DNA of 64,000 nt from the NCBI RefSeq assembly GCF_011947225.1, contig NZ_JAATVW010000003.1, positions 310,001-374,000 of the forward strand. Direction: 5' to 3'. This document shows, in pieces, positions 8,450-11,182 of the stretch. How positions within the stretch are numbered: position 1 is the first letter of the stretch; every line of letters begins with the position of its first letter. The translations under genes and the position numbers were made by a program. The notes beneath the pieces are model-generated. The model was not told the origin of the DNA. It searched no databases and saw nothing but the letters and a program-made list of their open reading frames with translations. Source of the stretch: Planosporangium flavigriseum. Lineage in GTDB: Bacteria > Actinomycetota > Actinomycetes > Mycobacteriales > Micromonosporaceae.

Positions 8450-8466
8450 GAGGCTGTGGACAGTTT
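8450..8466 (+). repeat. Left terminal inverted repeat of the IS5-type element
   Basis: GAGGCTGTGGACAGTTT; pairs with 10739-10755 with two mismatches, the inner 13 bases being identical. Preceded by the TAA target-site copy at 8447-8449. Confidence 0.85.
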
Positions 8467-8483
8467 CTCCTCAAGCCGACCCC

Positions 8484-9275
8484 ATGCTTGCCGACGGTTG
8501 TGGGGTGGCGTACTCAACTGATCTGACCGATGCGCAATGGCGGCTGCTCGCACCCGTTCTCGGGCGTGGTGGCTCGCGTGGTCCCCAGCCGGCTTTGGAC
8601 CGGCGGCTGGTGGTGAATGCCGTGTTGTACCAGGCGAAGACGGGCTGCCAGTGGCGGATGCTGCCGGCAGAGTTCGGCAGTTGGAACACGATCTGGCGCA
8701 CATTCGCCCGCTGGCGTGACCGCGGGGTGTGGCAGCAGGTCATGGACGTGTTGCGCCGGCACCTGCGCGTCGCGGCCGGCAGGGATCCGGAGCCGTCGCT
8801 GCTGATGGTGGACTGTCAGGTCGTCAAGGGCGGACGGTGCGGCGCTGACTTCCATGAGGGCCACTACAAGTACCGGCTGCGTGGCGCGAAACGTGCGGTT
8901 GCCGTCGATTACCTCGGGTTGCCGGTCACGGTGAACGTGACCGGCGCGCGCACCCATGAGGTGAAGGCAGCCCGCCAACTTCTGGACCGAGTACTGCCGG
9001 AGGCCGCACGGGTGGCGACGGTGATGGGCGACCGCGGCTTCCGCGGTCTGGCCACGCAGCTCGAGCGCGCCTACGGCGTCGAAACGGTCATCAAGCACGA
9101 CGAGAACCGGCCGAGGGGTGAGTTCCGACCGTTGCAGCCGTTGTGGAAGGTGGAAGCGGCGTTCGCCGACCTGGGCAGGTGGCGGCGGTTGGCCAGGTCA
9201 TTCGAGGGAACGTCCGCGTCGGCGACCGCGTGGATGCAGGTGGCCGCTGTCGGCGTCATGCTCCGGCAGGTGTGA
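8484..9275 (+). CDS. IS5-family DDE transposase
   Basis: 263 aa from ATG 8484. The frame is open to 8427, but that start lies outside the element's left end. N-terminal YSTDLTDAQWRLLAPVL with a DUF4096-like block, then CQWRMLPAEFGSWNTIWRTF. The catalytic triad appears intact: D110 (MVDCQVVKGG), D183 (VMGDRGFRG) and E224 (WKVEAAFADLGRWRRL). The usual DSQSVK around the first Asp reads DCQVVK here. It should cut and paste the element by binding the terminal repeats. No frameshift or internal stop is seen, so it may be active. Confidence 0.92.
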   Translation: MLADGCGVAYSTDLTDAQWRLLAPVLGRGGSRGPQPALDRRLVVNAVLYQAKTGCQWRMLPAEFGSWNTIWRTFARWRDRGVWQQVMDVLRRHLRVAAGRDPEPSLLMVDCQVVKGGRCGADFHEGHYKYRLRGAKRAVAVDYLGLPVTVNVTGARTHEVKAARQLLDRVLPEAARVATVMGDRGFRGLATQLERAYGVETVIKHDENRPRGEFRPLQPLWKVEAAFADLGRWRRLARSFEGTSASATAWMQVAAVGVMLRQV

Positions 9276-9324
9276 ACCGGCCGAGATCAGTGAACTGTCG
9301 GTGCCGCCTGGCACTATCACGCGC

Positions 9325-10680
9325 GTGATCGCGTCGCGGGAGAAGGCACCCAAGCATGGGCCGGGTCGCCTCGTCGTCGACGGCACCGACCACGTGCTGC
9401 ACCGCAAGGCGCAGTTCGCACTGCACCCGGGTGCTGCCGCCGAAGCCCGGCTCCTGGCGCTGCTCGCGGCGCTGTGCGAGTGCTACAACGCTGCCCTGGC
9501 CGAGCGCCGCGACGCGTACCGGGCTACAGGAAGAACCGTGTCGTTGTTCGAGCAGTACAACCAGATCAAGGATCTGCGCGGGGTGCGTGACGACGTGCTC
9601 GCGTGGGGTATCCAGCCGGTCCGGTCGGCGCTGAAACGCCTGGACGAGGCGATGGCCGCATTCTTCCGACGGGTCAGGGCCGGGCAGGTGCCCGGGTTCC
9701 CTCGGTTTAGGTCCCGGTCGAGGTTCGACACCGCCTGCTGGGACGAACCGACCTCGTGGAAGCTTGGCAAGGACGCCGAGACCGGCCGGTGGCGGCTGGC
9801 CGTGCAGGGCGTCGGGACCGTCGCGTTGTCGAAGAAGGCCAGCCGGCAGTTGGACCGCCTGGTCAAGCGCGGCGGGGATCCGGCCACGTTGACCATCACC
9901 CGCCGGCGGGCCGGGACCGGATGGGTGTGGCGCGCCACGGTCGGATTCAAGAACGTCACCACGCAGCCGTTGCCCGGCACCGGCCGGGTCATCGGGGTAG
10001 ATCGGGGTGTGGCCGTCACCGCCGCCACCAGCGACGGCCAGCTGCTGCGCTACCCGGCGCAGGCGCAAGCAGCGCGGGACACCGCGGTGCTGCTCGGGCA
10101 GTCCCTGGCCGGGAAGAAGCGCGGCTCGAGGGCGTGGCGCAAGACGGTACGCACCATCGCCCGTGAGCGGTGCAAAGCTGCCGCGATCGTGGACAACTGG
10201 GCACGTGAGACCGCCAAGACGATCGTGGCTGCGGCCGACGTGCTCGTCGTCGAGGACCTCGAGTTGAAGAACATGACCCGTTCTGCGAAGGGAACCGTCG
10301 ACAAGCCGGGGCGGAATGTGCGGGCGAAGGCCGGGTTGAACAGGTCCCTGTCGGGCGCGGCGCTGGGGAAACTCGCCACCAGGGTGGCCGTCAAAGCGGA
10401 AGAAGCTGGACGGACCCTGTGGCGTGTGAACCCCGCGTACACCAGCCAGGATTGCCCCGCGTGCGGCCACCGCCGCAAAGGCAACCGGGACCGTACCGTG
10501 TTCCGATGCCTGAACTGCGGGCATACCACACACGCGGACGTGAACGCCGCGGTGAACATCGCCGCCGCGGGCCAGCAAGCCCACACCGTCTGGCAGGCAG
10601 CCGGCGCGCCACCGCTGGCGCGGCCGAAACCGCGTCTGCGGCGGCGCACAGCAGATCAGCCGCTACCCGCGGCAGCGTAG
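9325..10680 (+). CDS. tnpB: TnpB-like RNA-guided nuclease (RuvC, OrfB family)
   Basis: 451 aa from GTG 9325, 49 bp after the transposase; upstream in-frame codons to 9118 overlap the transposase and look non-coding. RuvC-type residues are present: D226 (VIGVDRGVAV), E310 (VLVVEDLELKNM), D405 (HADVNAAVNI). A zinc-ribbon CPAC/CLNC lies at C377, C380, C395 and C398. TnpB proteins are omega-RNA-guided DNA nucleases that favour retention of their host transposon and are ancestral to Cas12. Normally TnpB accompanies a Y1 (IS605) or serine (IS607) transposase or stands alone; here its partner is a DDE transposase. Confidence 0.93.
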   Translation: MIASREKAPKHGPGRLVVDGTDHVLHRKAQFALHPGAAAEARLLALLAALCECYNAALAERRDAYRATGRTVSLFEQYNQIKDLRGVRDDVLAWGIQPVRSALKRLDEAMAAFFRRVRAGQVPGFPRFRSRSRFDTACWDEPTSWKLGKDAETGRWRLAVQGVGTVALSKKASRQLDRLVKRGGDPATLTITRRRAGTGWVWRATVGFKNVTTQPLPGTGRVIGVDRGVAVTAATSDGQLLRYPAQAQAARDTAVLLGQSLAGKKRGSRAWRKTVRTIARERCKAAAIVDNWARETAKTIVAAADVLVVEDLELKNMTRSAKGTVDKPGRNVRAKAGLNRSLSGAALGKLATRVAVKAEEAGRTLWRVNPAYTSQDCPACGHRRKGNRDRTVFRCLNCGHTTHADVNAAVNIAAAGQQAHTVWQAAGAPPLARPKPRLRRRTADQPLPAAA

Positions 10681-10755
10681 AACCACCGAAACACGACTGG
10701 CGCCGGGACGGCACCAGGGCCACGAGCCGAACGGACGAAAACTGTCCACAGTCCC
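10620..10755 (+). ncRNA. Candidate omega-RNA region at the TnpB 3' end (speculative)
   Basis: In characterised TnpB systems the guide scaffold overlaps the 3' end of tnpB and runs to the transposon boundary, with guide bases taken from flanking DNA. Here the tnpB 3' end and the following 75 bp contain a 9-bp stem (10697-10705 with 10709-10717, one mismatch, loop GGA) and a short GGAC/GTCC hairpin at the right terminus. If transcribed through, the guide would begin at 10756. Placement rests only on analogy and visible hairpins. Confidence 0.25.
10739..10755 (-). repeat. Right terminal inverted repeat of the IS5-type element
   Basis: The reverse complement reads GGGACTGTGGACAGTTT, matching the left end at 15 of 17 positions. 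Followed by the TAA target-site copy at 10756-10758. Confidence 0.85.
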
Positions 10756-10924
10756 TAAACCGTGGTCTGGTCCCGTCTTCTGCCGGCACTGTCGGCTCTG
10801 GCGGACGCACCGATCGTGACGACTGGGGTCAGATGGCGGTTGTTTCAGGACCGCCGCGAGGACGAATGTACGGGTAGAAAGTGCCGCTCGATATCCGCCC
10901 GGGCTGTTCCAGGAGATTTCGGCC

Positions 10925-11182
10925 ATGACCGTCTGTCCAAACTCCCCCCACGAGGTCGGCAACCGGATCGCCATCGCGAAGGTGACGCTCTCGGTTCACC
11001 GGATCCAGGCCGGCACCGGCCGCTGCGAGGCGTGCGGGCGCGAGTGCCCATGCGACGCCGCGAACAACGCCGCGAACACGCTCGCGGCGTACGGCCTGCC
11101 GGTGACCGAGCCGCAGCCGCAGCCGCAGATGCGCAACCAGCGCCGGTTCCTGCGCAGCCGCAAGTACCTGAACTGGCGCTAG
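10925..11182 (+). CDS. Small conserved-looking Cys-rich protein, unknown function
   Basis: 85 aa. ATG preceded by AGGAG at good spacing, which supports a real start. The sequence has a Cys cluster CEACGRECPCDAANNAANTL (about 34-53) that could bind zinc, preceded by an amphipathic stretch (GNRIAIAKVTLSVHRIQ) and followed by a Pro-Gln stretch and a basic tail ending SRKYLNWR. I do not recognise the family. It sits alone between the insertion element and an endonuclease V remnant, so context gives no function. Confidence 0.6.
   Translation: MTVCPNSPHEVGNRIAIAKVTLSVHRIQAGTGRCEACGRECPCDAANNAANTLAAYGLPVTEPQPQPQMRNQRRFLRSRKYLNWR

Follow-up and report, generated by a model that had tools for sequence, protein, structure and literature searches.

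Can a cut-and-paste transposon of the IS5 family hold an RNA-guided nuclease as a working part of itself? This question is raised by a 2.3 kb element at positions 8450 to 10755 of a stretch of DNA from the soil bacterium Planosporangium flavigriseum (64,000 nucleotides, which will be referred to as the window), in which a DDE transposase gene and a tnpB gene lie between the same terminal repeats. TnpB proteins are regarded as the probable ancestors of CRISPR Cas12. Bacterial TnpB is assigned to IS200/IS605 and IS607 elements, and Fanzors to many eukaryotic transposons including those with DDE transposases (PMC10711439, PMC3627910); the groups recognised in a further source are IS605, IS607 and IS1341 (PMC9956272). 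A sequence-only reading of the locus had remarked that TnpB is not routinely paired with an IS5 DDE enzyme. Among the titles and beginnings of abstracts listed in a literature search, none deals with a bacterial IS5/DDE-TnpB element, and an earlier description is possible. We consider it quite probable that the locus is an IS5-family cut-and-paste element with a recurrent RNA-guided nuclease module serving its retention.

The window element is a single discrete unit comprising inverted repeats, a TAA duplication, the DDE gene and tnpB (Table 1). Its 17-bp ends are complementary at 15 of 17 positions. By itself this repeat is not exceptional, as an inverted-pair search of the GC-rich window listed 32 pairs of at least 12 nt, among which it ranks fifth. 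The ends were judged real because of empty sites in congeners and because two relatives (L058 and L205, see below) have the two genes enclosed by the same ends. All three other genomes of the genus contain the 750 bp left of the element, and the two window flanks, when joined, align across the junction in each of them, the 2.3 kb being absent there. These empty sites show one TAA (ggTAAac, ggTAAac, gaTAAac) compared to two in the window; the unit therefore inserted with the ends that the sequence-only reading had named. Its view that one pair of ends with TAA copies encloses both genes was thus borne out, and the empty sites it had proposed to look for in relatives were found. One full copy is present in the host draft genome (85 contigs).

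The product of the first gene scored 181.7 bits with NF033580 ‘IS5 family transposase’ (cut-off 110) and carries the domains PF13340 and PF01609; its triad is our own assignment from conserved alignment columns, the glutamate being replaced by lysine in one (L078) of the 19 transposases compared. Terminal inverted repeats and a short target duplication complete the features of an IS5-family element with a DDE transposase. The tnpB gene starts 49 nt past the DDE gene, probably at a GTG that lines up with the ATG start codons in L058 and L205; the frame is already open further upstream. Its product scored 201.6 bits with NF040570 (cut-off 100) and matched the solved TnpB structure PDB 8bf8 (E 4.5e-16), which we take to be ISDra2 TnpB. 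The RuvC residues assigned in the sequence-only reading were correct, and the D/E/D triad was retained in all 21 TnpBs compared. By profile score and triad the protein belongs to the TnpB family, and RNA-guided DNA cleavage is its predicted activity.

Three known types of TnpB transposon were considered for the window element. IS200/IS605 elements are not known to have inverted repeats; this family was rejected, as the transposase is of the DDE type and inverted repeats with a TAA duplication are present. For an IS607 transposon a serine recombinase would be expected, and DDE and TnpB are the principal products encoded inside the element (the remaining overlapping frames being unscanned). A lone TnpB of the IS1341 type does not apply, since the DDE gene lies inside the same ends.

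The nearest transposases were searched for in the family, in a phylum sample, in a class sample and in a collection of genome contigs. With the DDE protein, 3 of 354 family genomes (E ≤ 1e-40, all within the genus), 3 of 396 genomes of the phylum sample (E ≤ 1e-45, host included) and 3 of 394 of the class sample (host included) gave matches. The best 80 of at least 490 loci were taken from the genome-contig scan; in 15 of these and in eight of nine further loci the DDE gene is followed by a TnpB gene in the same orientation, although two of the 15 (L083, L087) apparently duplicate the contigs of L057 and L018. The window type of the pair recurs in Kineosporia rhizophila (L058; DDE 74% and TnpB 51% identity, the closest among the matches listed) and in a member of the same family, Kineosporiaceae (L205; DDE 67%, TnpB 48%), these two elements being 73% identical over 2,457 bases of DNA. 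Both hold the pair between the same ends as the window. L058 is flanked by TTA and TGA, and L205 by TAA and TAG; a clean duplication is therefore seen only in the window among the three. The inverted repeats enclose both genes, and where both ends could be set, tnpB adjoins the right end. The sequence-only reading had regarded the pairing as non-accidental and had proposed a search for it within conserved ends; it had conceded that IS5 copies ending near 9300, with lone TnpB elements elsewhere, would make the locus a single chance insertion. Joint recurrence in L058 and L205, and of the other TnpB type in more genomes, speaks against accident.

No TnpB match was obtained in the other class-sample relatives (L227, L228), in L017 or in any of L088-L137. 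The window TnpB, used alone, found no relative in the genome-contig scan and only its own copy in 354 family genomes (E ≤ 1e-70, at most four candidates scored in each). A viral-contig scan with the DDE alignment yielded 29 loci whose best segments are 25-44% identical; the stretches retrieved contained no TnpB match (E ≤ 1e-6). TnpB-less relatives of the element mostly measure ~0.9-1.5 kb, some 1.6-2.1 kb.

The other TnpB type, here called type A, was found on a Miltoncostaea oceani plasmid (L019), in Acidimicrobiaceae and other actinobacterial metagenome-assembled genomes (MAGs), in a MAG labelled Acidobacteriota (L086), in the congeners L016 and L018, and in the host genome (L015). This host copy (G000:C67:158500-163500) is a second DDE-TnpB element, intact-looking, with TAA/TAA flanks and both frames open, at ~159788-162232 of its contig. 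The four type-A TnpBs compared share 24-26% identity with the window TnpB.

It is in type A that an RNA can be recognised. From the tnpB stop to the right end run ~206 nt that are strongly conserved, end in ...ACGCTG and are followed by TNAG and then by unrelated flank (eight elements). A DNA search with this region gave matches at 36 places in 13 of the 15 genomes chosen for the DDE clade; 34 of these were retrieved, leaving out two in L056 and L057, and 33 junctions were set (L197 was not). All 33 have T at +1, directly past the right end, and differ in the flank beyond it: A stands at +3 in 29 and G at +4 in 27, further positions being without clear preference. The left flank of the 15 copies with a well-matched left end reads C-TNA (C 15, T 15, A 14), and the target duplications are identical in 14 of the 15. 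Pairwise difference was 0.119 for the RNA region, 0.376 for third codon positions of tnpB and 0.744 for the flanks, and the RNA region was the less diverged in 91 of 91 pairs when compared to the third positions. RNAalifold predicted a structure of 45 pairs from 29 of 33 candidate sequences (L193, L195, L200 and L201 were dropped, and L202 was too short), with 97.6% of cells paired as against 24-42% for slid versions; eight pairs are changed on both sides, and shuffles matched the structure in 0 of 500 cases on four of five measures and in 6 of 500 on the fifth. The final hairpin is formed with the inverted repeat. The 3′ end of one copy (L065) folded better than 200 of 200 shuffles. In silico, the type-A layout is that of a predicted omegaRNA plus guide. 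Rfam at gathering threshold reported, for 15 loci, only an unrelated cobalamin riboswitch (RF00174, 81 bits, L054:1061-1245, minus strand), which lies in the same stretch as a type-A element.

The coding sequences were examined for selection by the ratio of nonsynonymous to synonymous substitution (dN/dS). The median for TnpB was 0.145 (14 of 15 sequences with near-complete matches, one being dropped for a stop), and the value for DDE was 0.091 (8 of 11 genes, three dropped for stops). By this measure TnpB is under purifying selection. Stops interrupt the DDE gene in L058, L016, L081 (= L176), L084, L086 (= L172) and L188, and tnpB in L181.

Phylogenetic analysis had been proposed in the sequence-only reading to place the window TnpB against those of IS605 and IS607. 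In a tree of 33 rows, type A forms one group (97/97) beside IS607 TnpBs, and the window type forms one group (100/100) among IS200/IS605 TnpBs; the references were drawn from plasmid records and the program warned of long branches. A single clade of both types was rejected on this tree by the approximately unbiased test (p-AU 0.0005). All four type-A TnpBs tested scored highest on the IS607 TnpB model, only L069 above its cut-off. The NCBIfam origin models disagree for the window type, with scores far below cut-off for the window TnpB (IS200 104.0, IS607 84.6 bits) and for L058 (IS607 89.2, IS200 80.9 bits), and its placement therefore rests on the tree. By phylogeny, the TnpBs of the DDE clade have two origins, one IS200/IS605-like (window type) and one IS607-like (type A). 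The earlier suggestion of a new lineage accordingly holds for the pairing with the transposase and fails for the TnpB family, which groups with IS200/IS605-type TnpBs.

The DDE tree (60 rows, root not known) was built from the 80 scan loci, the nine earlier loci, the window and L205, excluding duplicates, truncated loci, L092, L094 and most of the distant loci. All 22 TnpB-bearing rows fall on one side of a branch (100/100), which holds 41 rows, and none among the 19 rows of the other side. The three window-type rows cluster together in both trees, with identical inner order, and a type-A split of L019/L054 from the rest likewise appears in both. In the DDE tree L019/L054 sit with Chloroflexi rows and the window group. 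One reading of this pattern would be an early gain of type A, its loss in the Chloroflexi group and replacement by the window type (type B) in the window lineage; separate gains of TnpB within the clade may also account for it.

For the window type a corresponding omegaRNA is suggested tentatively, by position, by analogy with the type-A RNA and by three sequences. The terminal hairpin with its 8-nt tail occurs at the same place in L058 and L205, and with a different sequence in the type-A copy L065. Tails of the three window-type sequences differ by 0.26-0.34 compared to 0.44-0.54 at third positions, although the repeat accounts for much of this contrast (0.32-0.42 without it). Hairpin, tail and divergence pattern are supportive and not proof. 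Rfam gave two matches in the window region at E ≤ 5, both far below gathering scores. The predicted RNA and guide are included in Table 1.

Table 1: Features of the element and its immediate flanks (positions in the window).
Feature	Position	Strand	Basis
Left target-site duplication copy, TAA	8447..8449	.	single TAA in 3/3 congener empty sites
Left terminal inverted repeat GAGGCTGTGGACAGTTT	8450..8466	+	matching ends in L058, L205
IS5-family DDE transposase, D110/D183/E224, no internal stop	8484..9275	+	profile matches, conserved columns
TnpB, RNA-guided endonuclease family, RuvC D226/E310/D405 and zinc ribbon	9325..10680	+	likely GTG start
Putative omegaRNA scaffold, 3′ end of tnpB and 75 nt after stop	10591..10755	+	position, type-A RNA, three sequences; 5′ limit arbitrary
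Predicted terminal hairpin, 3′ arm inside right inverted repeat, then 8-nt tail ACAGTCCC	10733..10747	+	folding
Right terminal inverted repeat AAACTGTCCACAGTCCC	10739..10755	-	inverted-pair search
Right target-site duplication copy, TAA	10756..10758	.	
Flanking DNA, putative guide (first base and length approximate)	10756..10778	+	analogy with type-A junctions and with ISDra2 TnpB (PMC8612924)

Ends, duplications, the precise empty site, recurrent linkage, the type-A RNA and purifying selection are all read from sequence, and from them we infer how the unit may work. The DDE transposase would move the whole unit between the inverted repeats into TNA sites. tnpB adjoins the right end and would be transcribed towards it, the transcript running on into a structured scaffold whose end coincides with the right inverted repeat (conserved and covarying in type A, presumed in type B). 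If the scaffold stops there, the host flank that follows would become the guide. After excision, TnpB would cut the rejoined flank at a transposon-associated motif (TAM), and repair from a sister copy would restore the transposon. Retention of this kind had been put forward in the sequence-only reading for a cut-and-paste element that leaves an empty site. The type-A architecture lends it support, with an RNA reaching the right end, a variable flank and purifying selection, while cleavage, the TAM and retention itself belong to the predicted part of the model. We lean slightly towards a broader version, in which one DDE clade took up TnpB at least twice, from an IS607-like and an IS200/IS605-like source, and the guide RNA was rebuilt each time with the right repeat as last hairpin and the C-TNA/G-TNA target (G-TNA in the window type) as nuclease motif; TnpB would then be a general retention module independent of transposase chemistry.

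The nature of the motif can be considered from the junctions. With a CTNAG target, the left flank would supply C-TNA as the motif. The type-A right ends finish in G; the occupied right junction therefore reads G-TNA and would be spared if the motif is C-TNA. The last right-end base was G in 15 of 15 type-A elements compared to C in 29 of 29 TnpB-less elements given, a comparison in which junctions were restricted to T.A by construction and 29 of the 41 TnpB-less elements with an identified repeat were used. The window type mirrors type A, with left G-TNA in 3 of 3 and C at the right end. The idea that the last base was altered in TnpB carriers against self-cutting is only partly upheld, as will be seen from the first of the following points.

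Several observations weigh against a role of TnpB in retention. Six more TnpB-less relatives (L070, L072, L075, L089, L227, L228) also end in G, the right-end pattern used for these six itself ending in CAG with at most two mismatches. A search for a motif beyond C-TNA (left) and TNA-G (right) in the 15 type-A copies found none; because the left motif is C-TNA only, a putative TAM is indistinguishable from the transposase's own target. The joint fold of the three window-type sequences has an unfavourable covariation term (+1.67), and single folds were matched by shuffles in 24 of 200 cases for the window and 38 of 200 for L205, L058 performing better (5 of 200). The window type is represented by no more than three elements, and outside the window the DDE gene is damaged in each, by a stop in L058 and by a stop plus a frame break in L205. 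Finally, 19 of the 41 DDE rows on the TnpB side are without TnpB (L071 and L076 lie on contigs ending too early to tell), and since this is so the association is recurrent, not obligatory.

The most serious alternative, which we nevertheless regard as unlikely, is that TnpB is an ordinary passenger of a transporter-like IS5 clade with no role in the life of the element. It is suggested by the TnpB-less relatives, which hold other putative frames in the same place: a 198-aa frame between the transposase and the right end in L070 (L070:5888-6484), and putative open frames after the DDE gene, as if in a passenger slot, in the Chloroflexi elements L059, L060 and L068. Between the DDE gene and tnpB, two type-A elements have an additional gene in opposite orientation, for a GNAT acetyltransferase (L065:5871-6413 and L080:5876-6274, both minus). 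A mere passenger, however, would hardly be expected to follow the DDE gene in the same orientation in 23 of 23 TnpB loci and to adjoin the right end wherever both ends could be set, nor would two TnpB lineages be expected to have been acquired in an identical arrangement. Moreover, the type-A RNA stops at the element end and is more conserved than synonymous sites. A relic of the RNA was looked for by eye in four Chloroflexi-group elements that lack TnpB, and in their tails only the inverted repeat was conserved. Bao and Jurka disfavoured a mere passenger role, under which TnpB would be expected in many types of insertion sequence (PMC3627910).

Still less probable is a mainly regulatory role of TnpB and its RNA in damping transposition or expression, the guide serving for binding and not for cutting. 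According to PMC8612924, inhibition of excision and integration by ISDra2 TnpB was reported earlier; the RuvC triad, intact in each of the 21 TnpBs, would be needless in a pure binder. Chance nesting, a lone TnpB element having inserted once into an IS5 copy of the host genome, would fit the single full copy in the host draft and the failure of the TnpB search (E ≤ 1e-70) to hit any of the 353 remaining family genomes (at most four candidates scored in each), but was rejected as highly improbable, since the same pair and ends recur in L058 and L205, the three rows are grouped in both trees with the same inner order, and type-A elements repeat the association.

Retention of a cut-and-paste element by its nuclease module, our preferred reading, can be compared to known systems. 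The window TnpB groups with those of the IS200/IS605 family, to which ISDra2 belongs, and the predicted type-A layout is like that of ISDra2, in which the guide RNA comes from the right end, the flank serves as guide and the target motif lies at the left flank (PMC8612924). IS200/IS605 elements, in contrast, move by Y1 single-strand ‘peel and paste’ without target duplication, whereas the window element has a DDE enzyme, inverted repeats and a TNA duplication. Type-A TnpBs stand beside those of IS607 in the tree and score highest on the IS607 model; the scaffold of the IS607 right-element RNA (reRNA) includes an invariant flank base (PMC10711439), as TNA may do here. IS607 differs in its serine TnpA, the DDE elements described here having inverted repeats and no serine recombinase. 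Within IS5, the closest likeness is to the group that duplicates TNA, which we take to be the IS1031 group: it shares the NF033580 model, G...C ends and the TNA duplication, and differs in that its TnpB-less relatives here are smaller. Fanzor1, a TnpB homologue, was captured by eukaryotic DDE transposons (Mariner, IS4-like, Sola, MuDr, hAT) with inverted repeats and target duplications (PMC3627910, PMC10711439); Fanzors differ in being found in eukaryotes and their viruses and are traced in PMC10711439 to one IS607 TnpB lineage.

In the bacterial DDE-TnpB elements, prokaryotes would have their own parallel to the way in which DDE transposons of eukaryotes acquired Fanzors, and a TnpB retention module, if confirmed, would mirror this. 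Because a bacterial DDE lineage carries TnpB, the protein is not bound to single-strand or serine-recombinase transposition. The same partnership in distant bacteria suggests that cut-and-paste transposons may use guide RNAs against loss, and the DDE-TnpB element offers a system for testing the retention model with a cut-and-paste enzyme and a clean empty site.

Derivatives of the elements were also observed. L184 (~2.0 kb) has tnpB and the RNA and no DDE match, and L196 (400 bp, TAA/TAA) and L199 (~277 bp) consist of RNA and ends only; such miniature elements would carry their own guides. A deletion has removed the middle of L055 (G431:C1:1306500-1312500) and fused the start of the DDE gene with the last part of tnpB; the ends of this copy are intact and its flanks read TCA/TCA. 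An extra reading frame lies inside the type-A element of L080 (L080:6525-7610, minus strand), presumably resembling an IS110-type transposase, which would account for the length of that element (4.4 kb). To the right of the window element, a small open frame (10925-11182, plus strand) shows a zinc-ribbon-like cysteine pattern and no Pfam or NCBIfam match; it lies outside the element, as the right flank is common to all three congeners.

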